Assembly: GCA_946699065.1 (NCBI GenBank) | Contig: CAMPDV010000221.1 | Location: forward strand, 124,001 to 188,000 | Reading direction: 5' to 3' | DNA length: 64,000 nt | Origin: Loxodes magnus | Lineage: Eukaryota > Ciliophora > Karyorelictea > Loxodida > Loxodidae | In this document: piece after piece, positions 1 to 64,000 of the stretch | Layout of the letters: every line of letters starts with the position of its first letter | Position numbering within the stretch: the stretch's first letter is position 1 | Position numbers and translations under genes: made by a program | Notes under the pieces: model-generated | Seen by the model: only the letters and a program-made list of their open reading frames with translations | Database searches by the model: none | What the model was told of the DNA's origin: nothing

Positions 1-215
1 TTCCAAAGCATAGGATGCAATATGCGATTACGGGTACATTTCCCCGACCTATGATGAAGAAAGCTTCCTCCTAGCATTCAGAATTCTCCAGCTTGTCACA
101 TCTTCCTTCTCTTGTTATTGGTTTCTCTTCTTCCATTTTATCCTCCGTCCGCGCTCATTTTTTTGTTGCCTTGCTGAGCCTCCAAGCAGGATCCGAAGGA
201 GAGAGCTTTCCACTC
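1..215 (-). CDS. GC-richer coding fragment, unknown product, runs off the window edge
   Basis: On the minus strand one frame gives about 70 residues with a natural mix of charged, Gly, Pro and Cys residues, including one TGA (Trp) and one TAG (Gln). Its last part reads FFIIGRGNVPVIAYC and resembles at DNA level the two direct repeats at 11237 and 11400 on the plus strand, with a three-base gap that keeps the frame across VP-I/V-I. GC content is well above the flanking sequence. No start or stop can be placed and I do not recognise the family. It could be an exon or a captured gene fragment. Confidence 0.4.
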
Positions 216-900
216 TATTTAAATTAAATTATAATATTAATTTATGATTCTTTTATTTATTTTAGTTAAGATAACTTTAAATTACTGCTTAAGTATATTA
301 TATTTATAAATTATAGTTAACTTTTGCTTTTTTAACTACTATTTTACTTTACTATTTCAATGAAAACTATTTTATGCCTTTTATAATTGTATAATAGTCA
401 TTGCCCTAACTGTCTTAAAGCTATTATTATGACAAGCGAGTAGTTAAATAGTTTCCATGTAAATGAGTTTTGTGCTTAAATGATCAAAGCATCATTTTAG
501 TTTCTTTAATGATTTTTGCAAGAATCACCAATAAGCTTTAATAATAGACCTGAAGATTTACTTAACTTTGAGATTAAAATATATAAGATAGAATGCTAAT
601 AATCCTTAGTAAATGATTAGATTTAAATTAATGTGTAGATCAAAGTTTTAAAGAAATGTAAGCTAAGTATTCAATCACAAGAGGAAATTTATTAATATTT
701 TAAAAATAATTCTTAGCATTTTCAAGTAGCTTTCCAATATCTTAATAAATTAATCGTTAAAATCAACGTTAGTAAATGCAAAAACAGTAACAGTCTAATT
801 GAACAGTAATAGTTTGTCTAGCGACTCTATATCAAAACATAGTAAAGGAATAGAAGCAACCAGAGAGAATTATGAAAAGTAACTAGATTAAATTCTAAAA
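216..900. other. AT-rich sequence with no supported gene
   Basis: Very AT-rich sequence without motif, repeat or paralogy to other parts of the window. I see nothing annotatable in it. Confidence 0.5.
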
Positions 901-2230
901 TAAAATAAAAAATTCAGTTTAATAGATACTTAATGATATAAAAATTTGAAAATAAAGGTAGGATTCAAAAAATAGATGTAAGCAAGTTTAACTCACAATA
1001 AGGAAGTGATATTTAATGTTATTACCTTCCTAAAATAAAAGGCTAATGAATAGTTATTGACAGAGTAATAATTTAAATCCCTAATAGACTAATATTTCTA
1101 GTAGAATTATCATGAAAATTAATTAAAAAAACGTTAAAATCAAGAAGAGCTATAAAAGATACAAGAACAGATATTTGTTTAAAAATATGAATTACAATAT
1201 TTTAGTAGAATCAAATTTGATAAGATATGTTAATTCTTGGAGTAAATTAAAGCAGAGAATTTATATTAATAAAGTTTAATGTAAAGGCCTCTGAGCAAAT
1301 CAAACTTATAGAATAAATATCTATCTAGTTAAAGTTATCTTCTCTAATGATTTACTAAGTTAAAAGTTGATATAAATAATTAAGTGATCAAAATCTTCTT
1401 AAGAATTTAATGGCAGCATCAAATACTATTCTCTCCTAAATTATATATGAACTTCAATTCAATTCAATTCTTAAATCTTATCGACTATCAAATTAAAGAA
1501 TGATGATTTATCTAATAGTAAGCTCAGCAATGTAATTAACAAATTTAAATTTCTAATATGCAATTCTAAGAAACACTAAATTAATCAGCTATAACATGAG
1601 CAACACAAATTTCAATTCCATCACATCTGAGTACCCTTATACTATTCAAGGTCATTCTGATTGTATTACATCTTTAGCCATCTCCTCAGACCATTAATTA
1701 ATCTTTTCGGGAAGTGGAGTGAGACAAACATATGGGACTTAAAAGGTGGCTTGCTTAAAAATACTTTCCAATGATATAAGGATTCTATATTCTCTTTAGT
1801 GATATCAAGTGATAATAACTATATTGCTTCAGGAAGTGAGATGATAAAATAAAAATATAGGATTTGAAAAGCAGTTAGCTTAACAGTACTTTGTAGGGAC
1901 ATATTAGTTCTTTATAATCTATAGCAATTTCCAGTGATGGTGGCTATATTATTTCGGGAAGTGAAGATACTACAATAAAGATATGAGATTTCTCAACTTG
2001 ATAATTCATTCAACTCTCCAAGGACATTCAAATTCATTAGAACAGGTAATATTATCGAATGATAAAAAACATATCTTATCAGGATCTTATGATAAAATAG
2101 TCATGATATGATAATACAATTTCTTACTAATGTGCTTGCAAATTGTTGAGGAATTAAGATCTTATTGGTAGCTATAGAATGAGATACTTAAGCAATCAGT
2201 GTGAGATTGAAGAAGAAAATTTAAACTTAA
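901..2230 (+). pseudogene. WD40-repeat gene copy, frameshifted
   Basis: From about 1610 the sequence carries four or more WD40 blades in the reassigned code: GHSDCITSLAISSD, then IWDLKGG, GSE, IKIWDF and GHSNS. The blades lie in different frames, with breaks near 1710, 1835 and 2010, so the copy is decayed or badly sequenced. TGA stands at the Trp of IKIWDF near 1984. The stretch 1410-1460 resembles the N-terminal IPLLLxKYEILPN module of the intact WD40 gene at 20254, which suggests that 901-1600 is the N-terminal part of the same gene type. WD40 propellers are protein-interaction scaffolds; no specific role can be given. Confidence 0.7.
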
Positions 2231-2854
2231 ATCATAAACATAATATCTTATTTATTGTTAAAAGTAAATAAAATAATATATTAAATTGCATTATATTTCT
2301 AAAGAAAAATTAAATAAATATAAGTAAAAAAAGTAAGAAATTATATGATAAAAGTTTATCTTTTTAAGAAAAAATAATAAATTAAATTAGGTAAATTAAA
2401 AAACAAAAATATTAAATGAGGAAATAATAAAATGGAAAAAAGATGTCAGGATTCAAGATAGGATTCTTCGCAGTTCCAATGGTAGGAGTTAACTGTGATC
2501 GGAAGGTTTCTTAAAATATTTTAGTATCTGGCATCTCCCATAAAATAAAAGTTGCCTTTTAATAATTTATTTTCATACTCACCTGCATTTTTATTAGGAT
2601 TATAAATTATCTTAATCGTCTTAATTTTTTTCTAGCTAATTCTCCTTATCTAATACTTATTAATTGCTATGTTTCTTAGGTTTAATTAGTCATTTTATAC
2701 TTATAATAATAATATACTTAAAGTTATTAAGGTTTTGCATTTCCTGGAATTTCGATCAGTTCCTGCGGACATTTTATTAAACGTGGATGTGTTCCACGAC
2801 CTTTTTTGAAAGTGGAGGTTACCACTATAGACTTCTAAGTGGTCTTGCGAAGAT

Positions 2855-3526
2855 TTTTTATTTATAAATTCCAATTTGCGTTATCCATAATTTGTTAAGT
2901 TATCTTCATGTTCTTTTCTGCTCTTATTCGTTTATTCTCTTTCATTATCAACAGTTTCTTAATAAATGATTACTTGATTTGCAATATCAGCACAGTTTAT
3001 TTTCTCGTTTTTATTTCGTTCTTTTTATCGATAGTTTATTTTCTATTTTTTCTAATCTTTAAATGAAGTTCATATCGATCATTTCTTTTCCTGGATTTTA
3101 TTCTACTTTTGAGTATATTGGTGTTTTTTCTATTTCCATTTTCGTGTCATATTTAAAGTTTTATTGTGACTAAGTTCAGAGTTGTTCTTCCGTTATCAAA
3201 TTGCTTTGAATGAGCTGTCTTCTGAGTATTAATAATTCATTGTTTTAATCCTCTATGCTATTCATTAATTCCCTTATTTTTTCTCCTTAGTTATAAGCTA
3301 TTTCTTCATACTTTGAAATTAATTTTTACATTTGATCTAATTAAATTTAAAGTTTTTGATCAGCTTCGTTCTTAGGTTATCTTATCTCTATAGGTCCTAC
3401 CATCACTTTACCTTCTGATGACGAGCTTGACTTCTCTCGTTACTATTGTTTTTTCTAAATTTATTTCGCCGCTTTTCTCTTTAGGTTTTTAAGTTAATTC
3501 TTTGAGAGTCGAAGAGTCTAATCCAT
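2855..3526 (-). CDS. Gag-like coiled-coil protein with CCHC zinc knuckle
   Basis: Reading leftwards from an ATG at 3526-3524, the frame starts MDQTLRLSKNQ and continues with a basic, Gln- and Ser-rich segment and a long heptad-like coil. About residues 178-191 form a CCHC zinc knuckle (C-W-Y-C-K-S-S-N-H-L-L-R-N-C, spacing C-x2-C-x4-H-x4-C) encoded at 2945-2995, with the Trp after the first Cys written TGA. CCHC knuckles bind single-stranded nucleic acid and are typical of retroelement Gag proteins and some RNA-binding proteins. Open sequence continues to about 2440, so the end is uncertain. No protease or reverse transcriptase is visible next to it. Two decayed relatives lie at 24290-25310 (minus) and 56390-56570 (plus). 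Confidence 0.6.
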
Positions 3527-4189
3527 TTTATTTCTATTTTATACTTATAACATTTAGCTTATTTACTGTCTAGCAAATTAACAGAAAATAATTAAAAAAT
3601 AAATTTATCTAAATTCCCATAAGTGTATCAAGTCAAACGAATATAAGGAAAATAAGATAGTACTTCATCAATAAAACAGGAAAATGAATATGTATTTGAG
3701 TAATGCGATATTTAATGAAAGTTTCCAAAAATCAGTATGAGTTAATCTGCAATCTTTTAGAGAGAATAAAAGAACTCATACACATATTAAACAAATGAAT
3801 TTAGAAAAGACATAATGCAAAAACAACTTGTTCAATTAAAGTCACAATTTAAGAATTATTTTTCGTTAATCCTAACCCACTTAATTGAAGGATTCTGAAT
3901 AACAACTAAATTAGCTAAGATTGATATCGTGACCAATCAATTAAAATTAGTAATGAAATTTAAAGATTAAATTAACTAAAAGATTGCAAAAGCTCGAAAG
4001 TTTTAAAATTAAAAAAAATAGAAATTGAAGATAATGAGGTGTTGATATTTTAATTCTGCTTAAGAACTGATAAAACACTGTTTTAGCTTCAAAAAATTTA
4101 AAAGGTAAAAGGATTGAAGAAATCGAAGAGAACTTTTTAGAATTTGAATAGATAGCAATTAAATTAAAAAAATTGAAACAGAAAATACT

Positions 4190-4500
4190 TTAGTCAGATG
4201 GAAGATGAGTGGTAATCATTGCGTAAAAAACGATAGAGGAATCAGCCATAATAAAAATGGAAAACTAAAACTGATTGAAAATCCATAAAAAGCAGCACTA
4301 TTTAAGCTTTATGTTGATAATAATAATAATTTTAAAATTTTAAAATTACTTAAATAATTGAATAAGCTTTTATAAGCAATTAATTAAATCAAATAATATG
4401 AATGTCATTTAAAATTATCTAACTAAAGATTCTAATTTACTGAAGATCAATAAAATGCAAAAATCAATTTTATTTATTGTTCTATAAATGAATGTCAAAT
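4190..4500 (+). other. Coding fragment with weak serine-recombinase-like linker pattern
   Basis: One plus-strand frame reads NHCVKNDRGISHNKNGKL, then LIENPQKAALFKLY followed by four Asn and KILKLLKQLN. This recalls the GY..NGKL....EA.IV..IF..Y......I...LN pattern found after the catalytic domain of large serine recombinases. I see no catalytic domain (no YxRVSTxxQ motif) upstream in 3600-4190, although that stretch also reads as Lys/Gln-rich protein. The resemblance may be chance. I would otherwise call it an unknown remnant. Confidence 0.2.
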
Positions 4501-4813
4501 GATAATATTATTATTCCTACTTCTCTATGTTATTTAATTTTTTAATCACTAAATATTTTTGCGTTTTTTATAATTTTGTTTTACTTTAATGGATTTATAT
4601 AATTTTATCAAAAAATTTGATGGTCAAAACAAAGTTTTTTTTCGGAAGAGAGCTTTTTTTTTTCTCGTATAGTTTATTAAAAAAATTAAAAAAATAAAAG
4701 TAATTAAGATTAAGTTATGTATGTATAATCATTCTTTAATTAGATTTTGAATGCTCTTATTTTCATTTTTTTATTTAAAATTTTGTTTTTAAGCATATTA
4801 AAATATAATAAAT

Positions 4814-5158
4814 ATGTTGCTGAAGTGGATGGTACAATGTGCTTAATTCAAATTATATCTTTGGCATATTGCTACTTTTTTATTGTTTAATGAAGTTACG
4901 GTCCTATTTAAATATTCCGGAAAGATGACTGAAATATAATATTTAGCAATGTCTAGGTTGGATTATAGATTGACGGTGGTTTTGACATTTTCTGAAGATA
5001 GATAGAAAAGAGCAATCTTCAAGTATTACTTCTCATGAGGATATTATAGATTGTACTTTCTGATTATGGAAGTCAAAAATCCTTAGTTTATTACCAAACT
5101 AAACTTTTTATTCTAGTTTGAAGAAATAAATCAAAAAGAAAAATTTATTATTTATTGA
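4814..5158 (+). CDS. Small ORF of unknown function ending on TGA
   Basis: ATG at 4814 opens a frame of 114 codons rich in aromatic residues (MLLKWMVQCAQFKLYLWH at the start), with TAA and TAG as Gln and one internal TGA as Trp near 5035. It reaches TGA at 5156-5158, ten bases before the R1 ORF, which happens to be in the same frame, so a read-through fusion is formally possible. Composition is balanced and protein-like, but no domain is recognised. It may be the 3-prime part of a larger gene. Confidence 0.35.
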
Positions 5159-5167
5159 ATATATTAA

Positions 5168-5530
5168 ATGGATGTCGGACACGTCAGAAAAATTAGTAGA
5201 TAATCTGGTGCAGTGTATACTGCATTGCGAGTAATCTCGCCCTAGATATCATCACGGGAAAGGATGGATAAGCTCCGTTGAGACATACCTAATTTACCCC
5301 GAGGGTTCTCTCTAGCAGTATGAATTTTGACTGACATGCCTTCTAATTACCAACTTAATAACTATCTATTATTTGGACCTTATTCAAGAAGATTGAAGCA
5401 TTTGACTCAAGATTTTAGAATAATTTTTAATAAGAAGATTCTCCATTTGGAGAAGCTGACATGACTCATCGGACCTCTAGAATTTTAACAAGAAACATGA
5501 GAACATTTTCTTAATATTAAATATTAATAT
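5168..5530 (+). CDS. R1 ORF copy 1, conserved small protein of a dispersed repeat
   Basis: The frame starts MDVGHVRKISRQSGAVYT and continues about 120 codons through FGPYSRRLKHLTQD, a Lys/Leu-rich helix and ETWEHF. The second copy is at 19392-19755 on the minus strand. The copies differ largely by third-position or conservative changes, and four TGA, several TAA/TAG and the ATG are shared, so the ORF evolved as protein with those triplets as sense codons. GC content is higher than the flanks. The family is not recognised. Copy 1 is followed by a hairpin tail at 5531-5580; copy 2 ends just before that tail. Confidence 0.6.
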
Positions 5531-5580
5531 TGAAAGAGCTGCGCGCCAATGAGATGTTACGCGCTCTATAAACATTTTTA
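5531..5580 (+). repeat. 3-prime hairpin tail, copy T1
   Basis: A sequence beginning AAAGAGCTGCGCG and closing with CGCGCTCTATAA, whose ends can pair (AGAG with CTCT, CGCG with CGCG) round a loop with AATGAGA. Related copies stand at 11634 and 12079 on the plus strand and at 25314 and 24251 on the minus strand, each after a different coding fragment and each followed by T/A-rich sequence. A shared 3-prime end of mobile or transcribed units is the simplest reading. Confidence 0.6.
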
Positions 5581-5629
5581 TTCATTTATTTATTTAAGTT
5601 TTCTAAAAAATCTTAAATTAATTCAATTT

Positions 5630-6290: not shown

Positions 6291-6324
6291 ATAACAGAGC
6301 TGAAACAAAAAATTTAGAAGGCTT

Positions 6325-9385: not shown

Positions 9386-9389
9386 AGAT

Positions 9390-9900: not shown

Positions 9901-10079
9901 AAATATTTTTTGATCTCTTAAATCTAAATTTAACTTATTTATTAATAGTTCTTTTATTTTAAGTTTTTTCATTCTAATTTTACTATAATATATTTAATTC
10001 ATCTAGTTTATGCTAAGTTTCAGAAGACTTTGATGTAAATTTTTTAGGTCATAAGTCTTTGATTTTGATTCTTTGCTAT

Positions 10080-10620
10080 TTTAAAAACCTTGACTGGACA
10101 TACGGATTAAATTTTCTCTTTAGCAATAACCTTTGAATCTAACTATATTATATCAGGAAGTCGAGATACAACTATAAAGATCTGGGATTTCCACACTGCT
10201 ACCCTCCTAAAAGTTTTGACCGGACATACGGATTCAGTTAGATCGGTAGTAATAACAAGGATCAAAAATGAATAATTTCTGCATCTTAAGATAAAATGAT
10301 AAAGGTCTGGTTTTTTCAAATGATCAGCTTATTAGAACTCTCCAAGGACATTCAAGTCACATAACAGCCCTTAAAGTATCTTTAAGTAATAGCTATATAA
10401 CATCTGGTTCTAATGATCATACTATAAGGATCTGAAACTTATCGTTTGGTTAATGTATCCTTATTTTATTGTGGCACTAAGAGACGGTGGAAGCATTGGA
10501 TATATCGAGTAATAACAGTTAGTTTGTATCAGAAAGAGGATTTTGTTATTATACTGCAAGGCTAAGTATCCTACATTTAGAAGGTGGAATATACAGAAAG
10601 TGTTGAGTTAAGAAATAAAC
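10080..10620 (+). pseudogene. WD40-repeat gene copy with frameshift
   Basis: Four blades are readable: LTGHTD with ITFESNYIISGSRDTTIKIW, a second GHTDSV blade, then after a one-base shift near 10256 KDQKWIISASQDKMIKVW, and after another shift LQGHSSHITAL with SNDHTIRIWNL. Two Trp positions (KWIISA and RIWNL) are TGA. Later sequence to 10620 is degenerate. The intact relative is the gene at 20254. Confidence 0.75.
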
Positions 10621-18873: not shown

Positions 18874-19391
18874 ATGAAGAAGACTAATTATAGCGAAAAT
18901 AAATCTTGATTAAGTTTATTCACTTTTTTGAGATTAGTATTTCATTTTACAGAAAAATCTGAAGAATTTCAGAGCTATTATGTCCTTAATAATCCAAATT
19001 TATACCTCATAAAATCTTATTAGAATAGTTAAATTTATTCTTTTAGCAGGATACTAATTTTACATATTGCCTAATTAAAACATTTTTTAAATGAGAAGCT
19101 AAAATATATTCGATGTTTTTGTTTCGAAAAATTAGGATATAATTATTATTCTCAGGGCAGTCAAATGTTATCCCGTATTTATGCTCTGGTAACGATATTA
19201 GATTATCCTATTGTATATGATTTTATGATTTTCAATGATTCAATCAATAGCATAAATTACTATTGAGTCTTAGCTTTTGAACTTACGAATTCGGTTAATT
19301 AATATAGCAGTGAAATAAAGGAGCAAGGGATATTTTACTCATATCTGACCAAGTCTAATTGATATACTAGCTTTGATTTGTAGCTCTTTCA
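18874..19391 (+). CDS. Unknown protein truncated at the R1 repeat
   Basis: ATG at 18874 opens MKKTNYSENKSWLSLFTF and a single frame of about 170 residues (VFHFTEKSEEFQSYYVLNN, CFEKLGYNYYSQGSQML, ALVTILDYPIVYDFMIFN, ELTNSVNQYSSEIKEQG). TGA is Trp three times. Composition is that of a folded helical protein. The frame stops making sense exactly where R1 copy 2 begins (about 19392), so the 3-prime part seems lost or displaced by that repeat. No family recognised. Confidence 0.5.
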
Positions 19392-19755
19392 ATATTAATA
19401 TTTAATATTAAGAAAAATGTTCTCATGTTTCTTTTTAAAATTCTTGAAGTCCAATGAGTCATGCCAGCTTCTCCAAATGGGGAATCTTCTTATTTAAAAT
19501 TATTCTTAAATCTTGAGTCAAATGTTTCAGTCTTCTTGAATAAGGTCCAAATAAGAATTTGTTATTAAGTTGGTATTTAGAAGCCCGTCAGTCAAACTTT
19601 CATACTGCAAGAAAGAACCCTCGGGGTAAGTTAGGCATGTCTCAACGGAGTTTATCCACTCTTCCCCGTGGTGTCATCTAGTCCAAGATTACTCGTAATA
19701 CAGTATACACTGCACCAGATTACCTACTAATTTTTCTGACGTGGCCAACATCCAT
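19392..19755 (-). CDS. R1 ORF copy 2
   Basis: Minus-strand copy of the ORF at 5168, from an ATG at 19755-19753. It begins MDVGHVRKISRQSGAVYT and continues through FGPYSRRLKHLTQDLR to ETWEHF. Differences from copy 1 are mostly third-position or conservative, and TGA, TAA and TAG codons are kept at the same alignment positions. An extra T near the end shifts the last few codons, and the hairpin tail of copy 1 is missing: similarity ends at GAAAGAGCT. The outer boundary abuts the truncated ORF at 18874. Confidence 0.6.
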
Positions 19756-19759
19756 TTAT

Positions 19760-20250
19760 TATATAATAAAGGTTAAGCAAAAAGTAATTAAAGTATACAA
19801 ATATGATAAATATTAAGATACTTTTTATTAAAGAAATGATTTAATTACTAAAATATTTAAATTGCAAAATAAAGTCTTTATTTCCATATTTGTTATTATA
19901 TAGAGTATTTCATTATTTAGTTTAAAAAGGTTAGTTTTAAAGAGAATAAATCTAGACCTCTTTAAATAAAAATTAAATCAGTTTAGTTTATAACTAAAAC
20001 TTTAGTTTTAAATGGATTAAATATTTAAATTATTTCGTTAATATTAGAATTATTTAAAAATATAAAGAAAATTAAAATATTATCCTTATATTTAAATTAG
20101 TTTAAAGAACTAAAATTTAAAATTAGTTTTATACATATAAATATGATTAATAATTTAAATATTTAATTGTATTGAATTAAGTCAGAAAGAAATATTTTCA
20201 AGTCATAAAAGTTACTTTAATTAAGCATTGTTAAAGTAAGTTATAAAATA
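19760..20250. other. AT-rich sequence upstream of the WD40 gene
   Basis: No coding signal. It presumably holds the promoter of the gene at 20254, but no element is recognisable. Confidence 0.4.
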
Positions 20251-20253: not shown

Positions 20254-21312
20254 ATGGAAAATAAATAAAAACAATTTATTAAAAGTATTTACATACGAAA
20301 ACTCTTAAGATAACGAAATGCACTTCTAGGCAGAATACCGCTTCTTCTTTTAAAATATGAAATTCTACCCAACTTGTGTTATTTAAAATTTGTAAAAAGG
20401 ATCAACTATGATTAAACTAAAGGTAATTTTTTATATTTAGATTTAATTTTTTAGGGACATACTGGTTAAGTAACTTCTGTAGCGATATCAAGTGATCAGA
20501 TATGAATCGTATCGGGAAGTTGGGATTATACGATAAAGTTATGAGACTTTACAACTGGTTAGTTAAAAAATACTTTATAGGGCCATACGGGTTTTGTATA
20601 CTCTGTAGCGATATCAAGTGACCAGAAATGAATCGTTTCGGGAAGCCATGATAAGAAGATAAAGATATGGGAATTCTCAACTGGCTAGTGCATGAGAACT
20701 TTGTATGGACATACATATGGTATATTCTCTATAGCGATATCAACTGACCAAAAATGAATCGTATCGGGATGTGGAAGTTATATGATAAAGATATGGGACT
20801 TTACATCTGGTTAGATAAAAAGTACTTTGTAGGGACATACAAGTCCTGTTTTATCTGTAGCGATATCAAATGACCAAAAATTAATCATTTCGGGAAGTCA
20901 TGATTGGACGATAAAGATATGGGATTTGACAACTGGTTAACTAAAGAATACTTTATAAGGACATACGTGAGGTGTATTCTTTGTAACGATATCAAGTGAC
21001 CAGAAATGAATCGTATCGGGAAGTAGAGATAATACGATAAAGATATGGGACTTTACAACTTGATAATGTATTCGAACTCTGACTGGTCATTCAAGCATTG
21101 TATCAAATATTGAATTTAGTAATGATTTAAGTGTTATAATTTCTGGATCATGGGATAAGACAATCAAATTATGGAATTTTAGTACAGGTTAATGTATATA
21201 GACTCTTTAAGTTCATAAAGGAGATATATTATCGGTAGCACTAAGTAAAGACAATAAATGGATAGTATCAGGAGCGAGGGACAAAACTATAAGAAAATAG
21301 AAGATAGCATGA
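20254..21312 (+). CDS. Seven-bladed WD40-repeat protein
   Basis: ATG at 20254 gives a 352-residue protein in one frame. Residues 1-65 include the [16 protein letters not shown] module shared with the 6325 and 901 genes. Seven WD40 repeats follow ([44 protein letters not shown], a fifth GHT repeat, [21 protein letters not shown]), enough for one beta-propeller, an interaction scaffold. At least five TGA stand at Trp positions (KWIVSG, KLWDF), and TAA/TAG stand where Gln is expected. The ORF ends on tandem TGA-TGA at 21310-21315, after the last blade has diverged. An 18-base GT...AG segment at 20430-20447 keeps frame whether removed or not. No frameshift: the best intact WD40 copy in the window. 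Confidence 0.85.
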
Positions 21313-28900: not shown

Positions 28901-30967
28901 TTTGCTCGTCTAAGCATATTCTGATGTATCTAACATCACTGATATAAAGATTAACTTATTCACTTCTTGCTAATCTTATTAGATAGTTTTAAGTATAAAT
29001 CCTAGTAGAGACCGATTGGTTATATGACTTTTCCCTTTTTCTTTCTAAGCTGCTTTGAACTTAATCCCTTTACAGGTTATGCTAATCCTAATTTCAATCT
29101 TTACTAAAACAAGAACACAATAGATTGGTAGAGATTAAGTATTGATTTCATTGACCATCGTTTCATTCAATAAATTAGAGCAAGTTTCTAGGATTTGCTT
29201 CGAAAGGGAAGGAGAATATAAAGCCAATTTCACTTGAATACTTCAAAAGGAACTTAATCAAAGGTTTAGAATGCTTAGTATCTATATAGACTAATGAAGG
29301 ATTTTGCTGCTTTAGTAATATGATAACCAAATTCAAAATAGATCTAAAAAGACTAATCATTACATTTATATCTATACACAGTTTATTAAACTAAGCTACT
29401 CAAAAAAAGTTTTATTTGGCGGTCTTTATTTTTAGATGAAATTGAAGATAGATATACTTCTAATGACTTTGATTGAAGAATAGTTGAAAGACTAGAAGAG
29501 ATTAGTTGTCAAGTTACTAAGAGAATGAACAGTACTTAGGTATAGTAGATGCGTTTGTCTAACTAATTATTTAGCTTTGAATATTTAGTCTAAAGAACTT
29601 TTGATTAAAATCGAAGATTTAGCCTTCTGTTTTGTAGTTTAATCTTCTCATCTTCTTCCTGTTAAACTAAGGGCCTTTTCAACTCGCTTTATTTATAATC
29701 AAATATTCAACCATTTTTGTGTGTCTTATTATTTATCTAACTAATAAGATTAATTACTTATAAACCAAGTTAATATGAAATTATCTTTGATCTATCTTTT
29801 TACTTTTGATAAAAAACTAATGAATGTTAATCATCTCCTTGATGCTACTTGCATAAAGCAATTTAGCTTTTTAAAACTAAATAGTCTACCTCTATTTCAA
29901 ACTACACTAAGCTTATTTCACATAATGACTTTGTATAGAAGCAATTTTAAGTTATTTTGTCTACTCCTTCAATCTACCAAACATGCTTCTACTTAGTATT
30001 TATTTTAACCATTTCATATGCATTCCTTGCTTCTTTTAACTTTGTATATTAATTTCATTATTAGAATGCTTTTTATACGTGCTATTAAGTTAGGAAAGAC
30101 TTATAAACTAAAATTTATTTGTGCATAATGTTCTCTTATTCTCTTAGCAATCCAATGGTTGCTAAGATTCTTGCCTATTCAAGTTTTTTCTTAATATCTT
30201 CAATATAGTTAGGTAGCTTACCATCTTTCGAGATCTTTATTGTATCAAATCTTTTATTGCTAGATTTTAAAACCTTAAGAGGTAGTAATCAGATAACCTT
30301 ACTGATTAATTCTTTCTTTCTTTTTAAATAAAAATACCATCACTTTTTTAGCTAAATCCCCTTCTTAACTTCGATTTCTAATTGACTAGCTCTCACAATT
30401 TTTAGTTTGTTAATTTCTTGATAATCTTTAAGTGCTATAATGTCAACTACTACCCTATTTATTTTTTGATCCTACTTTGTAAAGCATAAGGTTTCAATTG
30501 GAATTTCAAATATTTGCAAGTTTTTAAATTTCTTCCATCCAAAAGTTCCATAAATCCCCTTACTAAATCTCTATATCAAGAAGTTACCTTGCTCCTTCAT
30601 TTTATCCTTTGTAGTGGTTCTTAGTGTTAAGAATGTCAATACTTACACTGAAGAACATCCAATAGAGAAAATAATAAAAAGATTTACTTAAATCAGTTAG
30701 ATATCCTTTCTTATGGTTCTGTTTAATGAAGGGATATTTTAGATATTTATCGTTTAGTAAAAGAACTAACTGAGAGTTTGTAAAAAGAAGCTTATTTTAG
30801 AGTATAGATAGAGGTGAATAGATCTAGGAGTAACTGTAGGGAAGTTTGAGTCTATGTGAAGATTAATAGAAAGGTTAGTACTTTAGATAGCCAAAAAGTG
30901 ATTTAATTTGGATAAAAAGATAAAAATTTTAAGATTTAGGAAGATATTGGAAAGCAACTAAAAGTGA
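26000..30967 (+). CDS. Very long polytopic membrane protein
   Basis: One frame from an ATG at 26000 to TGA at 30965-30967 stays protein-like for about 1655 codons. An N-terminal third is dense in hydrophobic segments (FNFFIISVAFIIYAW, LLVIPVSLLVELFLQFYSS). The middle is mixed (SVDWDKQLGLKRERDVPM, IIELIGANLASLFEKFMV, GYMTFPFFFLSCFELNPF), and a second hydrophobic cluster lies at about 29650-30600. Near 29465 the motif DFDWRIVERLEE, with TGA as Trp, recurs as DFDWRIVERIEE with TGG in the inverted relative at 37350. Start and stop are best guesses; the hydrophobic part could be inflated by pyrimidine-rich composition. A channel or transporter is possible, but no family is recognised. Confidence 0.5.
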
Positions 30968-33863: not shown

Positions 33864-33989
33864 GTGACTAGTATAAGACTACTTTTAAATTTTATTTGAA
33901 GCTAGTTTAAACTAAAAAAATGTAATTAAATAAGCAAGATTGGTAATTAGGCTTAGCTTAATAATATAGATTTAAAAATATAATAGAAA

Positions 33990-36900: not shown

Positions 36901-37460
36901 TTGAAAGAGGGCTGGAATACATAGTTTTGAGAATTTTAAGGTGCTTTTCACTAAAAATATTACTTATGAGACCATTGATACTTACTAAGTCTATATATTA
37001 TGTAAATGATAGATTTCGTATAATTTAATAATAAAGGGGCAGATTTATGTATGATTTATCTTATTAATTAGATAAGAAAAGGAAAATGAACTTAATATAT
37101 GAAAATGAAGAAAAAGAGAGAAGCTTCTGATTTCTTGAACGGAAGAAGATGAAAAGATTTAGATACAGCAATAGAGGTTTTAATCTTAAAGCTTCTCGGG
37201 CGTTAATACTAGAATAGCATCTAAGCTTCGACCTTCATTTTGAAATAAAGTTAAGATACTTCCTAAGTAGCCAAAGGTTAGTAAGGGCTTCTATTGTTTC
37301 TAATTATGATCTTTCTCTCAATAACGCGATATTTCCTCTCTTCTATTCTTTCAACTATTCTCCAATCAAAGTCATATATAAGTATATCTTTTTCAACTCC
37401 ATCTAAGTCCTTTAAACAACTAGCTCTTATAATATAACTTTTTGATTACTTTTTTCTGAT
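33990..37460 (-). pseudogene. Inverted relative of the long membrane protein
   Basis: Leftward from 37460 the minus strand reads DGVEKDILIYDFDWRIVER and continues protein-like to about 36270 (hydrophobic segments, then RIPTTASFIYWFCFNEAQ). Further frames to about 34000 include LLKKALEVQYLQAWLRRK, EEMERFCLPRSSMQRLGDK and SPKAKERKTTIPRFVFIK. The DFDWRIVER block and the hydrophobic order after it match the plus-strand protein at 26000-30967. Frame changes and lack of a matching N-terminal two-thirds suggest a truncated, decaying copy, possibly joined to unrelated remnants. Confidence 0.4.
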
Positions 37461-37469: not shown

Positions 37470-40060
37470 TTAGATAGTACAAGCAATTTCTGTGCTAAGT
37501 CTAAAAATTCAAAACAGAACTAAAATAGAGGAAGAAGATGAGGGTAGTATATTAAACTAGTTAGAAGATACCCAACCATAAGGTATATCCTAGAATACTC
37601 TAAAAAGTATGAGATAAACTATAGAAAGCCTTAGAACTTATACCTAAAAGAGAAAAAATAAAAAGAAATCAAAGAATTGTTCATAACTTTTAGTCATACA
37701 AGCCTGTAAAACCTTAAACAACAACTAATAGAAATAGCAAGCATTTAGTAAAGCAGCATTACAAGAAGCTAGTTGCTTATTATAGAGATAGAATCTTTTA
37801 ATTTTAAGATAGTTAGTAAATACAGTAATTGAGGCTTTTCTATTTATAGATAGCTTTAAATAAAAGGAAAGCTTAGGTCTTTTAAGAGTGTAAGTAATTC
37901 AATGTGAAAAATGCTAAGAATACTTTAATGATAAGGAAAGGAACCAAGAAGATTAGAATGTGAGTGCATACAATGCTTAAAGTGCTTGTAGACTATGCTA
38001 GATATATTAAGTATTCTATATTGCGATAATAATGATAATATTACTACAAAATCAATTGATGAGCTTGATAGACTTATATACATATAAGCAAGAAACTGAA
38101 GGAAAAGAAACTAGCGAAATAGAATGTGGATTTTAGTTTTAGAGCCGAAGAAATGCTAAATTCATAGCCTACCTCTAGTTATTTCATGTTTAAAGGATAA
38201 TTAGATAATATGTATTTAATGTGGAATAACTTAGCATAAATACCATTAAGTACTTTCTTTAGAAGAAAAACTAAAATCTCTATAGACTGAAATTAAGTAA
38301 AAGCTAAACTCTTTATAGAAATCTGTATAACTAAGATTTAAAAGAAAGCAATGCAGAAAAACTTAAAAATAAGTAAACTTGGAAAATATTAGTTTAAGAA
38401 GTAAGATCATACAGACATAAGAAGATATCTTTCAAAACTTAGTTAAGTTCATCTAAAGCTAATTAAATAAAAAGCTTAACTTAAAAATATAATTCATAGT
38501 AATAAGCTACATCACATATGATATAAATTATAGATTTATAAAAGTAGTTTGATGAAGTTAGTAGATTACAAGAGGAAACTATAGAAAAATGTGAGGATAA
38601 GAAATAAAGGATATAAGACTTAGAACAGTAATTTAAAAATTTGGAATAAGAGTGATAAGTAAAAGAGGAAGATGATTCTAGTTTAAATCTGTCAAATTAA
38701 ATACTTTAAGAACTATATGAAAGTGAGGTTTTTAAGGAGTAAAATGAGTATTTAATAAGATAAAAGAAAGAACAAGAGGATCAGTGATAGTAGTAACTAA
38801 TCAAGCAAAATGAAATTAATTGAGATCTATAAAATTAATTGGAAGAAAGTTAGAAAGTAAATGCTTAAAAGGAGATAAAATTAAGAGTAAAACTAAAAGG
38901 TCGAAGAGCTTGCTAAAGAAGTAAATAACTTACATTCAAAAGCTTAAAATCAAAATAATAAAGCTAACAAGCAGAATAAGAAGATTCTAAGTTTATAAAA
39001 GTTGTTAGAAAGAATACGATTAAAAGGAGAAAAAGAAATAAGAATAAATTGGATTAATTGAATAACTTACTAAAGAAGCATAAACCTTGCAATAATAAAA
39101 TTTAGATCTTAATAATTGTATTCAGAATTAATAAAAATAGAATTAAAATTAAGAATAGGTACTAAAATAATGGACATATAATATAATGTATTTTAATTAG
39201 AATAGGAAACTTAAAATTTGACAGAAAAAGGAAATCTGCTAGATTAATTAAAATAGGAGAGAGATGAAGTCAGCTGATATATTTAGTAGTTGGAAGATCA
39301 GATATAAAATAACTTTATGATTTAAGAATTAAAAATAGGAGTTAATTTAGGAACTTAAAAGTAAGAAACAATATGATATCTGAGCCTTTTACTAGCTATA
39401 TAAGAATCAAATGAAATTCAAATATCTTACAAGCAATTAACATCTCTAATAATTCATTAACCTAAACATAAGTCGCCATTCCTAATTTTTAAGCTATATC
39501 TGATAATAATACTTGTACTTATTAAACAAAATAAGATCAAATAATAAAGGTAGGATGATTAAAATAAAGCATCATCTTAAAAATATAATTTAATAGAAAT
39601 GAACCTTCTTTTTCTTTTGATAATAAGGATCTTCTTTATATTATTGGAGGACGAAATGCATAAGATTATACTGTAAATGCTTGTGAGATTTATGATGTCG
39701 AAGAAAAAGATTTAGTATGCTATTATGATATCATTTCAAATAAATGATCATAATTTTAATCAGATAAACTACCAAAGCCAACAATTTATTTCAGCAGTAT
39801 ATGCTTAAGAAATGCATATTTGGTAATAACTTAAGATCAACTTATTCATTTGATTGAAAGAGAATAACAGAAAATGAAGATCATATCCTAAATCTGGAAA
39901 TTTTTGATATAACGGAATATATTAATTTGATAGGATATGAATGTACAGTCCAGATCCAGACGAATAAAATTCAGTATATTTTTTAGGTTAAAAAATAGGT
40001 CTAATAAAACATAGAAAAAATGCGATTTTGATATCTAATTATTTGCCAATTAGACATTGA
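37470..40060 (+). pseudogene. TRIM-like kelch gene, copy 2 (decayed)
   Basis: Aligns with copy 1 along its length: QCEKCQEYFNDKER and ECIQCLKCLQTML for the RING, a coiled coil, and kelch pieces at 39600-40000 ending in RIWMYSPDPDE with TGA as Trp. The position matching the ATG of copy 1 is GTG, and frames change within the RING, B-box and kelch regions. Upstream, 37490-37890 is open in frame with the RING start (TKIEEEDEGSILNQLEDTQ and a Gln/Leu-rich part), possibly a lost N-terminal exon or a neighbour. Confidence 0.65.
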
Positions 40061-46950: not shown

Positions 46951-47430
46951 TAAGTATTAAAATAATTGGGACTAAAGTTATATCAATGTATTGAAAATCA
47001 GCTACTTTGACTATCCAAATAAATTCTTATTACATGTCTTTACTTATTAATATCTTAGATTACTATCAATTGATAATCAACTAAATCACTCATTTCTTCT
47101 CAATTTGATCTATTACTTACTAAAATTTTCCAGATTCTAGCCTTTATTTTATCTCTTATATAAATATTTTTTATCTTGTTCTACTAATAAAATCTAAGTT
47201 TTATACTATAATAGAAGTGATTAAGTCTTTCTACTCTTGTAATCTAAAAAGTATTAACTTATATGAATCGACTCTCTTTTTATTATAATTTAACTTAAAA
47301 GCAGATTAAGTACAATCAAATGCTTTATCCTTTATTATAAATTTGAAAAATAAACTTAGTTTATTAGTGTAAGAGCAAAGCAAATATCAAATATGAGAAA
47401 TGAAGACTAATAAAGAAAAATAAGATTTAA
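46951..47430. other. No supported gene
   Basis: AT-rich intergenic sequence downstream of the minus-strand kelch gene; no terminator or repeat recognised. Confidence 0.4.
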
Positions 47431-47451
47431 TAATGCTGTTTTATGATAGTT

Positions 47452-49714
47452 TCATAACTTATGCGACTCCCACTTCTTATTGCTTGCATTTATATCATAA
47501 TAAAATAGCACATCTTGCTGATCTGGTGAAAACATTCATAATTTATTTTTATCATAAATCCCGTTATACCAAACCGGTCAATCCTAAAATGGATAAGCTT
47601 TTCCATTCTCTGTTATATTTTTTCAATCAAATGATAAAGTTTATTTTAAGCAATTAGAGTTATCAAATATAAATACTTATTCCTTTTCTTATACATATAC
47701 AGACGATGCTCAAAATGCTTCTTTTGGCAGTTTTAAAGTTGCTGACTATTACCATTTGTTAACTATTATATCATAAAAGCATATTATGTCTTTTTTTTTG
47801 TTTAAAGTTATCTATATCAAAATATCCTCCAAAAGTAAATAACATGTCATATGCATAGCAAGTTCCATGTAATTAGCCTTTATACAAATGTTGAGCGATT
47901 TAGCTGCATTTATTATCTTTGATATCGTATATCTCACATTTGCTTAAAAAATTGAGATTAGATTCTTGTCCTCCAATAATATAAATAAAGCTTAAGTTAT
48001 CGTATGATAATGATGCCTAACTTCTGGGAGATATTAAAATTGACTTATTTACTATTTCACTATTTTCAATTTTAATAGCATTCTACAAATTAGTATTCTA
48101 ATCTTACCCTCCTACTAAAATTATCTAGTTATTACTTGTCTAATAGCAAGAAGTATAATTTTAATATAAGCTTTGCAAATTGGATATTTCTGATTAAGTA
48201 TTTAATAAAGAAATAGCTGATATATTGACTTTTTAAATAACATTCGATCCTCATTTTAGTCTTAAATAACTAGATAAATTCAAGGACTTATTATTGTTTC
48301 TAATTGCTATAATTTCAAAGCTTCTTTCTTACTTAAGTTCAAAATTAAAAATATTTCATCTTAAAAGTTCTTTTTGTGGAAATAAGCTCGATTTTAAGTA
48401 TTCTCTCTCTTCGTTTAGTTAATTTAATATTTGTATCTTTTCAGTTAGGTCCATAACTTACTTAATCTTTTATCTCATCTCTTATTCTTAAACTATTTTC
48501 TACTAAGTTAATAATTCTAAATATTCATTTAAAGTTTAATTTGTCATTTATATATTAGTAATTTAATCTTTAAGTTGCTAGATTTCTATACTCTACTTTT
48601 AAATAACTTATTCTAGTTCTGATATTTAATTTACTCTGTTCTACTCTGTCTAGTCTAGCAGATTAATCTACTAATTTAATTCTTCTAATTATCTACTTAC
48701 GTTTTAGTTTGTTATCTACAAGTTTTGTATCTACTCATTCTGTTCCTCAATCTTTATATCTTATTTCTCATTTTGTTCTATTTTATCTATTAAGTTTTTA
48801 TTTTTTCTTTACTTTTCCTTTAGTTTTTGTATCTATTAATAATAATCATTTATTGTTACATTTAGATTCGATAATCTGTCTTCATAGTTTTTTCTTTATT
48901 CATCTATTGTTTCTTTTTACTCCTTGAATAACTCACTTTCATATAACTCTTATAAAATATTATTGTAAATGCTTTTATTTTCTTAATCTTAAGCGTTAAA
49001 ATTCAGTTAACCTTGTTCCTAGTTATCTAACTGTGCTTATAAGCTATTTATTTTATATTTCTTTAGCTCACATTACTCTATAGTTATTTCTTCAAGTTAG
49101 ATTATGTCATTTATTTACTATTACAAGTCATTAGCTTTTTTCAAGTTGGATGACACTTCTTATTTTTATTCATCTAATTAGCTGAAGTGTTTATTAAAGT
49201 ACTACTAACAAAAATGAATAACTTAAGATGTTATTCGTTCACTTGCTTCTAAAATATTATTTCTAGTACCCAACTTTTCTTCGTTTATTTATTTTTGAGC
49301 TTCATAAATAATCTCTCTTTCAAACTGATATTGCTGTTTTTTTTGTAATTATAGCAGGTTAAGCTAAATTTGTAGCTATAAGGTTTTAATCTTTTCTTAT
49401 ATAAGTATATTTTCATGATTATGAGTTGATATTAGGCAAGTACTACATACAAGTTAGTTATCTTTAGCACATATGATTGATAATTCAAGCTAATGCTCTT
49501 TACATAAATTCTGAGTTTTGTTTTAGATTGTTTTAAGTTAGTGCACAGGTATACTTGATTTGAAGTTATGATAAAAGCAGAATATTACATTATTCTTCTT
49601 GAACATTACATTTAGACATTTTTCACAAGCTATACATTTACACTCCATTTCTTTAGGCTTCTTGGTAGTCTCATTAAACTCATCCTCACATAATGCACAT
49701 ACAGTTGCTTACAT
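47452..49714 (-). CDS. TRIM-like RING/B-box/coiled-coil/kelch protein, copy 3
   Basis: From ATG at 49714-49712 the frame gives RING residues (TVCALCEDEF, CKCIACEKC), a B-box (HQLELSIICAKDNQLVCSTC then STHNHE), a long Gln/Glu-rich coiled coil and kelch repeats (FIYIIGGQES, LFTFGGYFD, LWMFSPDQQD). It ends on TGA at 47454-47452 after WESHKL, matching the end of copy 4. One frame break falls in a run of nine T at 47791-47799 (A on the coding strand) inside the kelch region; losing one base restores the frame, so the gene may be intact with a sequence error. Role as for copy 1: a probable RING-type ubiquitin ligase with a kelch propeller. Confidence 0.8.
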
Positions 49715-50195
49715 TTAGAATTAATTTTTATTATCGAGACTTTAAATGAAAGCTTATTTTCTATAAATAACTAATTTTAATAAAATTAGAAAGGATCATA
49801 AAGCAAAGTAGCTTAGTATAGTTATCACTTCCATTTAAATGCTTATACTTCAAAGTAAAAACACTTAGTTTTTACTAAATAAAGTATTATAATAACTATA
49901 GCTATTATAAAGTTATTACTTTAGAAGCTTTTTTATTTAAAGTAGCACATAATTAAGACTGAAGACTATAGAAGGATAAAATTAAAGAGATTAATGAAAG
50001 CTAAATAGAAAGTTTATTATTCTCTATATTGAAGAAGATTTATGGACTCTATATTGTTCTTTATCTTTAGTTTTAGAAATTTTATTCAAGGAATAATCTT
50101 TTGTAGTTTGGCTAAATAAGAAAAATCAGATTAGAACTATATCAACATTAAGCTTGATGTTTGAGTGTAATAAAGTTTTTAATCAAATCAATTCT
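49715..50195. other. No supported gene
   Basis: AT-rich sequence upstream of the minus-strand kelch gene; presumably regulatory, but no element recognised. Confidence 0.35.
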
Positions 50196-54215: not shown

Positions 54216-54219
54216 CTTT

Positions 54220-56385: not shown

Positions 56386-56389
56386 AAAT

Positions 56390-58500: not shown

Positions 58501-59925
58501 TCATAAGTTAGGAAATTTTTTAATTTGTACTATTATTTAAATATCAGTTGCATTAAATATATGATAAATAGAAAAGACTTAAATAAATCTCTCTAACTAA
58601 AGGAACAACAAAGAGACTTAAACATGAGAAGCAAAGAAAAAATTGCTTTAATATTTTCTTAGCAAATTTTAATATGAAGTGAATAATTAAAAACTGATTA
58701 GTCTATTATAAGCTGTATGTTCAAGAATAAATAACAGATTAAAGGAAAATTCACATATAAGCTTAATTAAAATAAAAAAAATGAAAAACTAAATAATAAA
58801 GTAAAAAGAATAGTATTTTTCGAGCATCTATCAAAACTAGATAAAATTAAATTAGAAATTATTTTGATAGCTCAGGATTTATTATTCAATTTAGATAGAA
58901 TAAAAATAAATGTAAAATAAAGAGAATGATATTAAGCAGAACTATAAAAAGAAAAATGATTCCTTAATTGAACGGTTTTTAAATTCCCAAAATTCTAATC
59001 AATTAAATTCTATTCGTTTAATAATCCAGTGTTTAATCATTAAAAATGAGACTAAGAAAAATAATACTAGATCGTTATTAAAATTAAGGTTAAGATTATT
59101 AACTAATTTAGAAAAATAATTTGTAAGAATAACTTAAATAAAGAAAGTTTTGGAAAAGCAAGAGTCTAAATGAAACAATTTAAAATGTTAATTATAAGTA
59201 ATCAGCAGATATAAGAAAATGAATTTAGCAGAGGTAACTATAGTAACTAGTTCTGCTTTAATTAAGCATTTAATATTTATTTGGCTTTGAAGTTATTACT
59301 CTTTAATCAAGAAACAAAACAACTAAAGTTGAATGATATTGAAACATTTTGGATATCAGATGGCTATTTCATTTAAATTAGATTAACATAATTCTTTCCT
59401 TGTAAAGAGATATCTCTTATAGCTTAATTAAACTTTAAAGACCAATAACAATCTAAGTATAAAACTCAAGTTTTCTCATTTCTAATCTTTTGCTTCTTTC
59501 CACTTCTTCTCAAATCTATTATTTTATATCTTAAAGATTATTTTAGTATAAGTTGATTTAATAACCTAATCTTATGAATAATAAGCTTAACGTTTTAAAA
59601 TAAGAATTATGAAACTAAAAAAAGCATTTATATTGTAAAGGATATAAAAGTCTCCTTTATTTAGATCTCTTTAAGTTCTCAATTTAATCATTTATCTTCT
59701 TTTCTATTTTTCTATTTTTTTATTAACTAGATTAAACTATGATTGTGATCAAAATTAATGCTTATACAAATAATCTTGGCATTTTAGCTTCAGTATACCT
59801 ATTTAATAGTTTTAGTATCTTAATAACCTAATATTTGATATTCAGTTATTAATACATTTAAAGTCTTCAATCTTTAATTAAATTTTAGCTTTAATTTAAT
59901 TTAAATAGCTTATAGATTCAAATTT
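58501..59925. other. AT-rich region without a firm gene
   Basis: One plus-strand stretch near 59220-59400 (FCFNQAFNIYLALKLLLF, DIETFWISDGYFIQ) looks coding but is isolated. The last 300 bases should contain the promoter of the kelch gene at 59931; no element is recognisable. Confidence 0.35.
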
Positions 59926-59930
59926 ATTAA

Positions 59931-62206
59931 ATGTAGGCAACTACATGTTCGTTATGTGATGATGAGTTTAATGAGACTATTAAGAAGCCTAAAGAAATGG
60001 AGTGCTAATGTATAGCTTGTGAAAAATGTCTTAGTACAATGTATAAACGAAATAATATAATATTCTGTATTCACCATAACTTAAAATCTAATAAACTAGT
60101 ATAGGAACTTAAAACAATAGAAACTAAAGTTTATAATTAGTGTTAAGAGCATTAACTTGAATTAAAATTCATTTGTTCTAAAGATAATTAACTTATATGT
60201 AGTACTTGCTTATTATCAACTCACAATCATGAGGCTGTACTAATTTAAGATAAAATTAGAGGTTTGCAGGAGGAATTAAAGACAAAACTACAATTACTAC
60301 AAGAAACTATACAGTTATAACATAAGAGAGTAACCTTTATTAAAGATCAATAATCAATAAGCTAAGCAAAACTTGTTACTAGAAATATGATTTTTAAAAT
60401 AAAGGAGAGATTATAATTCTAAATAATGTCTATTATTTAAAAACACTTTAACAAAAACTTAAGCTTATTCAATAGATCATAGTAAGATATTTCGTCTAAC
60501 TTAATGAAATCCCATAGCATATAAAATAAAATAAATGAAATAGCCTAGCTTGAAGAAACAACTATAGATCAATGTGAGCTAAAGAAGTAGAAGATAGATA
60601 ATTTATTAGAACAATTACTTAACTAGGAATAAAAATAGTAGAAATGGAGCATTTAAGATTATAAGAACTAAAATATTTATAATATAGTCATATAAGAGTT
60701 ATATGAAAGTGAGCTGTTCTAAGAATTAAGAGAAAAAAGAGATATTTAAAAATATAAATTAGAAGATAGAATATCATCTCTGGATTAAAAGATAACTGAT
60801 TATACTTAGTAATTATAAAGTCTAAATGAAGAATAAAGAAATAATAAAGATAAGATAGTTCAACTAGAATAAGACAATTAAAAATAAATTATATATATTC
60901 AAGAACAGATTGAGTAGATAAAAGGCCTATAGAATGTAAATTAAATCATGAGAACTTAAATAGACGAATTGACATAATAAAATACTAAACTTAACCAAAC
61001 AATTTAGATATAAATTTGATAAATTCAAGAACTAGAATAAGTTAAATAGACTTTGGATTAAAAGAGCAAGGAATAAGAAGATTTAATAAGAAATTTATAA
61101 TAGAACATTTAAAATCTTAATAAATAGATAGATACATTAATTTAATAAAAAACAGCTTAAGAGTAAGAAATAAAAGAAAAATCGACATAAATTTAAAATT
61201 TAACAGAAGAAGTGCGAAAACTTAGTCAATAAAATGAAGAGAAAGAATAAATAAAAATACAATTAAACCAACAAATAGAATTTATAAGATGAAGTATTTT
61301 TAGATTAGAATTAAAGCAAGAAAAAAATTTAAAAATAATTACAAATAGAAGCAATAACAAATCTTCCATACATTTAACTAATTACTTAAGAATAAAATAA
61401 GAATCTAATATTCTTTAATCAGTAAAAAAATCAGTATCACCTTAAACTTAAACTTAATCGGCAGTATCTAATTTATAAGCTGTATCTGCAAATGATACTT
61501 CATGTTATTAAACTAGTAACAATTAGATAATTTTAGTAGGAGGATAAGATTAAAATAGATATTAAAAGAATGTTTTAAAATAGAAAATAATTAAATAGTA
61601 AATCAATCTAATTTAATATTTCCCAGAAAAAGAACTTCATTATCATACGATAATTTAAATATCATTTATGTTATTGGGGGATAAGATGTTTAATATAATT
61701 ATATGAACGAATGTGAGATATATGATATAAAAAATAATAAAGCTAGTTAAATAGCACAACATATTTATAAAGGAGAACGACATGGAACTTGTTATGCATA
61801 TGATATGATATTTACATTTGGAGGATATTATAATATAAATAACTAAAATCAATAAAAAGATTTTACATGCTTTTATGATATAATAATTAATAAATGATAA
61901 TATTCAACAACTATTAAATTACCAAAAGAAGCGCGTTGAATATCAGCAATTTATATATAAGAAAAAGAATAAGTATTTATGTATGATAATTGAAATTACT
62001 TATAGCAAACATTGTCATTTGATTGAAAAAATATAATAGATAATGGTGAAGCATTTCCTAAATAAGATTTATCGTTTTGATATAATGGAATTTATGATAA
62101 AAATAAAATATGAATGTACTCGTCAGATTCTAATTAGCAAGATATATTATATTATTATGATATAAATGTAGCAAGCAATAGAAAATGGGAAAAGTGTTAG
62201 TTATGA
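59931..62206 (+). CDS. TRIM-like RING/B-box/coiled-coil/kelch protein, copy 4
   Basis: ATG at 59931 begins MQATTCSLCDDEFNE. The RING cysteines (CQCIACEKC) and the B-box (CQEHQLELKFICSKDNQ, CSTCLLSTHNHE) are intact, followed by a coiled coil of roughly 400 residues and kelch repeats (IIYVIGGQDV-type, FTFGGYYN, KIWMYSSDSN). It ends on TGA at 62204-62206 after WEKCQL, aligned with copy 3. A one-base loss near 61575, just before the kelch domain, breaks the frame; all sequence on either side is well preserved. It is a near-intact relative of copy 3, so either a fresh pseudogene or an assembly error. Confidence 0.8.
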
Positions 62207-62209
62207 AAC

Positions 62210-62845
62210 AGTAAAATAAACATATTTAATCTTATTTAATTAATTTTACTAAATTACCTAATAATTTATACTTAATTTAATAACTTTTAATTACATAAAA
62301 TAGTGTATAAATCTTATTACTTTATAATTATAATAGAAATAATAAAAAATAGTTTAATTGACCCTAATAATCGTAAAAAACAAAAAAAAATTAAAATTTC
62401 ATAAATTTAAACTTACAAAAATGAAGCTGGTCTTTTGATTTAATAAAGAAGAAATAACTAAATAAAAATAAAAAATATCAAGTCCTTTAAAAATAGATAA
62501 AAATAGAAGTGTTAGAACTATATAATATAATATTATTTAAGAATTAAAATTGCTTATACAACTTAAAAGAGAGAATTTGCTTATTAAAAGAAAATAATCA
62601 AAAGCGCTTAAAGATCTACTAAAAATTTGAAATAAAAATATGAATAAGGAAAGAGATTTTTCTTAATGATATATTTAAAGAAAGTAAAATTAAAACATAA
62701 TAACAAAAATTAAAATAAAAGATTATTAAAAAAAGTAGGGATTCATAATTTAGGAACTGAATATAAAATTATAATTAAATAGAAAATTGAAGGATTAGAA
62801 TAATTGCAATAAAATGATTCTATAAAACTGATTTGATTTAAAGAA
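62210..62845. other. AT-rich sequence with no supported gene
   Basis: Nothing recognised; Lys/Asn-rich chance translations only. Confidence 0.45.
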
Positions 62846-62849
62846 AAGC

Positions 62850-63180
62850 AATTTAATTTTTTAAAATTTAAATCCATTAAAAGAAAGGCTATATCAGTAA
62901 CTCAATATATCATTTAGATAATATTAGTAAGATATTCTGGAATTGGAAGGAGAAAAAGATTGATAATTACGAAAAATTTTATAAGATTAATTACGGTAAT
63001 AGATACTGGCACATAAGATGTTCGTATCTCATTATGCATCCTACTGAACGTTGTATGGAAAATCAGTAAATATTTCTTGATTTTAATATCTTATTCCCCA
63101 TCAAAGAAATATTTATACTTATAAATTAGAATATGATGATTAACATACTTTGATATATCAAGCAACTAGAAAGTTTGAAA
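62850..63180 (+). CDS. Unknown protein fragment
   Basis: One frame reads KGYISNSIYHLDNISKIFW, NWKEKKIDNYEKFYKINYG, NRYWHIRCSYLIMHPTER and FLDFNILFPIKEIF. Trp, His, Cys and Pro content is higher than chance in this AT-rich setting. No start, stop or family assigned; probably a remnant. Confidence 0.35.
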
Positions 63181-63229
63181 ATAGAGATAATATAGAAATA
63201 ACTAAGTGAAAAATTTTCGTTTGATAACA

Positions 63230-64000
63230 TTTTCATTAAATTATACTTCTTTTTTTAAAATTTAATCTTAAATATTTGTTAAAATTTCTGCAAGCTTATT
63301 TATTAATTTATTTTTAATTATTTTAAATAAATATTCTTCTTGATGTAAGATTAGTTTTCTATTATATTTATGTTTTCCTTTTTAATTTTAAAATTCAGGA
63401 ATTTGATATTATTTCTTTTTATGTTATTAATTTCAATGAGAAAGATTATGATTTTTTCTTTATTTTTTTGTTGCGTAAAATTCAGAGCAAAGTCTTGTCA
63501 TTTTTTCTAATATCCAATCTATCATTTTCAAATACAATCTTTGATATCGATCTTTCTTTATTAAATTTGTTTTGCTTAGATATTAATGTAGTTTATCTAA
63601 AATGTCTTATTTTGATGTTTATTATTTACTTTACTCTGTTTTAATATTCATTATAATACTTTTTTAATAATTTAGCAATCAGTTATCTTCTGTTGCCATA
63701 GTTTTAATAAGTATGCTATATTAACATTATTATTTAATTTTTAATGTCTATTTTATAGCTTAAGATATTACTAATCTTGCAAAATATTATTTACTATGTT
63801 ATTAACTACGAATTTTAATCTTTTTTATTCAGTATTTAAATTTCAGAACTTAAACTATCTCATTCAGGATTTTTTCTTAAAGTTATTTCTTAAACTGAAT
63901 TACTTACTCACTTGTTTATTTTAAATATTACATTATTTTTCAATAATCTTATTTTCTTTAGTCTTAAGTAAGTGATATAACTCTTAATATTTCTTATTCA
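63230..64000 (-). CDS. Unknown helical protein, 5-prime end outside the window
   Basis: The minus strand gives a long charged frame entering from the right edge: KQLQEKILNEIVQVLKF, TMATEDNWLLNYQKSIIM, DKLHQYLSKTNLIKKDRYQ and KMIDWILEKMTRLCSEFYA, then a Lys/Asn-rich end. TGA (Trp) and TAA/TAG (Gln) occur in frame. It could be another coiled-coil member. Completeness cannot be judged from this window. Confidence 0.4.

Follow-up and report, generated by a model that had tools for sequence, protein, structure and literature searches.

In this study, we analyzed a window of 64,000 nucleotides (positions 1-64000, corresponding to C221:124001-188000) in which the three standard stop codons recur inside genes, most visibly in a WD40 gene and in four B-box/kelch copies. 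Based on alignments, tRNAs, eRF1 and gene ends, the window is almost certainly nuclear DNA of the karyorelict Loxodes, most likely L. magnus, to be read with code table 27: UAA and UAG would encode Gln, while UGA would serve as Trp, as stop and probably, at the end of thioredoxin reductase, as selenocysteine (Sec). The Loxodes code is real but already published (Seah et al. 2024, PMC11441545). Genome-wide scans covered the assembly that holds the window (705,730,643 bases, 7,843 contigs).

Stop codons inside the WD40 and kelch genes

The WD40 gene lies at 20254-21312 on the forward strand and matches Pfam PF00400 with an E-value of 4.4e-79 when translated with table 27. It runs in a single frame of 353 codons, of which 25 (final codon included) are stops in table 11, and this frame is open only if TAA, TAG and TGA are all read through. 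Under the standard code, the maximum stop-to-stop run across the entire window is 105 codons. The preliminary description of this DNA had warned that standard-code annotation would fail on such a genome, and we agree. Within the gene, TGA stands for Trp at 20503, 20542, 20629, 20755 and 21007 and TAA/TAG for Gln; the matches to WD40 proteins persist when all three stop codons are masked. The stretch ends on TGA, followed by a second TGA.

The use of both TGA and TGG for Trp in the repeated motifs of the blades, noticed in the preliminary description, is borne out: KWIVSG is written with TGA at 20626, 20752 and 21004 and with TGG at 21256, and LWDF with TGA at 20539. When the blades are aligned, five of the eight TGA codons (one of the eight being the last codon of the stretch) have a TGG partner in the same column of another blade. 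Random placement equalled this in 1 of 20,000 draws, and the sharing of columns by TGA and TGG thus exceeds chance. Two WD40 fragments occur elsewhere on the forward strand, at 1879-1989, with TGA as Trp in IKIWDF, and at 10325-10438. Outside the window, large tandem arrays with a 126-bp unit corresponding to one WD40 blade were seen at L001 and L005 (contig C1503), and match spacing points to such arrays on C119, C9, C620, C272 and C1832; the GC content of the two array loci read is 0.45-0.46 vs about 0.25 in the window. Our literature search found no paper covering Loxodes and WD40 together.

The B-box/kelch gene is present as copy A (31533-33894, +), copy B (37935-40050, +, in more than one frame), copy C (47421-49864, -), whose frame shifts at an A9 run near 47800, and copy D (59793-62235, +), with a frame change near 61577. 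The motif KIWMYSPD, reported earlier with TGA for Trp at 33770, 39927 and 62110, is exact only in copy A, at 33762; the other two sites carry near copies with TGA, namely RIWMYSPD near 39927 and KIWMYSSD near 62110. The motif DFDWRIVER was correctly paired: it has TGA for Trp at 29465-29491 (+) and TGG in the paralogue at 37347-37373 (-).

Gene ends, codon meaning and tRNAs

In conserved genes of the assembly (nine actins, two eRF1 and four glutathione peroxidases, GPx), the codon next after the coding part is TGA in all 15 cases, and TAA or TAG ends none of them (0/15). These ends were chosen by hand from the translations and two of the actins look alike; in two actins, the alignment with a solved chain stops on the same residue as the chosen end. 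Separately, the actin search returned 43 full-length matches at 450-460 bits (contigs C266, C707, C711, C524 and others), which are probably near-identical copies.

The two eRF1 genes, L070 and L071, lie on contig C196 at a distance of about 35 kb. They have the motifs RAQNIKS and FLCENTF and an Ala at the S70 position, the same set as in the Loxodes striatus row of PMC4695839. The genus Loxodes is well supported through these motifs. The top match of the eRF1 family, L069 on contig C2, differs from the eRF1 used here and was set aside. Both tables 27 and 28 had been offered for this DNA. Table 28, the Condylostoma code in which each of the three codons is both sense and stop, assigns identical sense meanings, but with TGA at every gene end and eRF1 motifs of the Loxodes type it is very improbable here and not needed; the 15 ends argue for table 27. 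The motifs and the TGA-only ends also fit the earlier proposal of a nuclear contig of a karyorelict-type ciliate.

For the sense meanings, one eRF1, two actins and one thioredoxin reductase were compared with solved proteins, the three stop codons being masked. Trp is found opposite UGA at four of five sites, and the fifth is the Sec position. For UAA (36 sites, 13 with Gln) the top score is Gln with 63, followed by Glu with 32, and for UAG (22 sites, five with Gln) Gln with 22, followed by Glu with 10. Two tallies of paralogues were made in addition, one from 11 hand-chosen and partly overlapping alignments within the window, the other from 14 conserved genes (eight actins, two eRF1, four GPx). 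Trp has the top score for UGA in both, with 15 in the window (next Tyr, -9) and 348 in the conserved genes (next Tyr, 102), and the window paralogues score UAA as Gln (71) before Glu (26). Column-based inference, which had been suggested as a check, thus returns Trp for UGA in every tally and Gln for UAA/UAG against solved proteins.

The tRNA complement points in the same direction. An anticodon-arm pattern for tRNA-Gln gave 464 matches assembly-wide vs 0 in a reversed control, and UUA, CUA, UUG and CUG occur as anticodons among the matches listed. ARAGORN, which labels by anticodon (UUA as tRNA-Stop, CUA as tRNA-Pyl), was run on 10 of the 30 fetched loci and gave four tRNAs with UUA, three with CUA, two with UUG and one with CUG. 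The UUA and CUA tRNAs share 81-85% identity with the UUG/CUG tRNAs and 77% with each other, compared to 50-53% with a Lys and an Ala tRNA and 58-67% with Trp tRNAs. In the case of Trp, a first pattern matched nothing; a relaxed, combined UCA/CCA version gave 129 matches (126 CCA, 3 UCA). A UCA-only pattern gave three matches, all tRNA-Sec, so that no tRNA-Trp(UCA) was detected among tRNAs resembling the pattern; one unlike it would escape. The suppressor tRNAs proposed earlier were accordingly recovered for UUA and CUA, as glutamine-type genes, while UCA is represented by tRNA-Sec only. Four tRNA-Trp(CCA) genes were fetched, and in L094 (C67) and L095 (C148) the 27-43 pair is not formed, leaving a 4-bp anticodon stem. 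A 4-bp stem tRNA-Trp in Loxodes is also reported by others, as cited in PMC13092985. By analogy, UGA is likely decoded by tRNA-Trp(CCA), some of which has the 4-bp stem. Contigs C67 and C148 carry long tandem runs of tRNA-Trp pattern matches, and L094 belongs to such an array on C67.

Several results weigh against Trp for UGA and Gln for UAA/UAG. The tRNA-Trp(CCA) genes L096 and L097 (two places on C110) keep a 5-bp anticodon stem, and 4 of 13 TGA codons in actins and GPx have no Trp in their column (L084 holds two of these, L086 and L089 a single one each). Of the four kelch copies, C and D shift frame at homopolymer runs, and one TGA of the WD40 gene falls in a column where other blades carry Gly. 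The last two points would suit table 6, with UAA/UAG as Gln and UGA as a true stop only, internal TGA then marking pseudogene decay. The frame changes near 47800 and 61577 may indeed reflect pseudogenes, or else assembly errors, which affects some of the examples given earlier; no listed GT..AG stretch fitted a short intron at either by eye. Table 6 is nevertheless still less probable than table 28, since the Trp of solved proteins stands opposite TGA at two sites each in the full-length actin L087 and in a full-length thioredoxin reductase, and since TGG occurs elsewhere in the column for the other 9 of the 13 actin/GPx codons (L087 77 and 84, L085 80, L084 79 and 340, GPx 4/4). Moreover, the 44 aligned pairs with TGA among window paralogues include 11 TGA-TGA pairs (these being counted twice) and 6 TGA-TGG pairs.

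As to UAA and UAG, no TAA (0/6) or TAG (0/8) of the WD40 blades shares a column with CAA or CAG, so that the blade test is uninformative on Gln. The paralogue tallies do not single out Gln: UAG scores higher as Lys than as Gln both in the window (75 vs 60) and in the conserved genes (242 vs 209), and the latter place UAA as Glu (136) above Gln (108). A Blastocrithidia-like meaning of Glu, or Lys, to which these tallies lend support, is the least probable alternative, given that Gln ranks top for both codons against solved proteins and that the UUA and CUA tRNAs resemble tRNA-Gln. We give the outside references and tRNAs more weight than the paralogue tallies, and on this balance the earlier assignment of TAA/TAG to Gln stands.

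Selenocysteine and the readings of UGA

The thioredoxin reductase model gave 10 matches, of which the five above cut-off were fetched, four as C-terminal stretches only. All five end in TGC TGA GGT TGA, i.e., Cys-UGA-Gly-UGA (L102 1513-1521; L103 166-174; L104 170-178; L105 160-168; also L106), with L103 and L106 alike in the part compared. In L102, the first TGA of this end aligns with the Sec position, which is a Cys in the solved chain; two TGA codons further inside the gene align with Trp. The assembly encodes three tRNA-Sec(UCA) genes (L091, L092 and L093, with 63.5, 70.5 and 73.9 bits for Rfam RF01852, in agreement with ARAGORN) and one SepSecS gene. Counting against Sec, no Rfam match to a selenocysteine insertion sequence (SECIS) was obtained up to E 10 in four thioredoxin reductase loci. 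The 3' flanks of four of these genes fold into hairpins with z-scores of -4.06, -2.59, -5.81 and -1.99, in which a UGA..GA core was recognized by eye only; their joint fold is weak, with one sequence misaligned. GPx was considered as another selenoprotein and rejected, as all four genes found carry Cys at the site. Taken together, UGA probably also encodes Sec in Loxodes thioredoxin reductase. The description of UGA as a sense codon therefore holds for Trp inside genes, with the correction that UGA is also the sole stop observed and probably Sec in thioredoxin reductase.

The L102 gene would thus use UGA as Trp at two sites, as Sec, and as stop one codon later. The coexistence of 4-bp and 5-bp forms of tRNA-Trp(CCA) could set the reading of UGA by gene dosage, a combined picture for which we see the chances as evenly balanced. 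According to PMC11441545, the meaning of UGA in Loxodes magnus is tied to its distance from the poly-A tail, and the gene model forbids in-frame UGA within 21 nt before the stop. Since the Sec UGA falls inside this zone, the published annotation probably shortens these thioredoxin reductases, judging from the gene model as described there. The word selenocysteine is absent from that paper. In the open-access literature, only PMC4695839 was found to name both Loxodes and selenocysteine, and its Loxodes passages concern UAR reassignment and eRF1. Three meanings of UGA have been described in Condylostoma and Parduczia by Swart et al. 2016 (PMC4967479).

We propose the following mechanism. UAA and UAG would be translated as Gln by dedicated UUA and CUA tRNAs, whose charging is suggested by their likeness to tRNA-Gln. 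Internal UGA would be read as Trp, most likely via tRNA-Trp(CCA) with a 4-bp anticodon stem, a role taken from published studies of Blastocrithidia and Condylostoma. Close to the end of the mRNA, UGA would act as stop through eRF1 with its altered motifs, the position effect being adopted from published work. At the end of thioredoxin reductase, UGA would direct Sec, for which tRNA-Sec and SepSecS genes are present and insertion is presumed.

The window as a whole and related codes

A large part of the window has no clear coding character. Pfam places WD40, kelch or B-box families in 10 of 28 window stretches (8/8 of a first set; 2/10 of another, one of them weakly); 17 of the 28 have no match, and one further stretch matches DUF2730 below cut-off. 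Neither a tRNA nor an Rfam match was found in the window itself. Gene finding by codon periodicity was weak, as training on one gene overfitted, and the coding stretches called by repeat-trained periodicity were set aside, many being without Pfam support. Positions 5146-5573 and 19362-19786 form a related pair in opposite orientation, with translations 65-76% alike in several frames. The translation of 2855-3571 (-) shows a zinc-knuckle-like Cys-Cys-His-Cys spacing with no Pfam match.

Among known systems, table 27 as described for Loxodes magnus (PMC11441545) and Parduczia sp. (PMC4967479) has the same UGA as Trp and sole stop and the same UAA/UAG as Gln, and nothing was found against it. Condylostoma magnum (table 28; PMC4967479) has the same three sense meanings and Gln tRNAs for UAA/UAG; likewise, no tRNA-Trp(UCA) was detected there, and tRNA-Sec accompanies selenocysteine UGA. 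It differs in that UAA/UAG also end genes. The nonstop code of Blastocrithidia is alike in its three sense stops, UGA as Trp and a 4-bp stem tRNA-Trp(CCA), but its UAR is Glu and its UAA is also a stop. Amoebophrya sp. ex Karlodinium veneficum (PMC6394959) shares three sense stops, selenoproteins and a tRNA-Sec as the sole UGA tRNA found, but is a syndinean and not a ciliate.

In summary, the reading of the three standard stops as sense, with UAA/UAG as Gln and UGA as Trp, is well supported by outside references, tRNAs, eRF1 and gene ends. Raw sequence alone sufficed for the correct recovery of this three-codon reassignment. The present work adds the case of thioredoxin reductase and an independent check of the code, made with tRNAs, eRF1 and the ends of genes. 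If Trp, Sec and stop are indeed assigned to one codon in one gene, the discrimination between them by the ribosome becomes directly testable.

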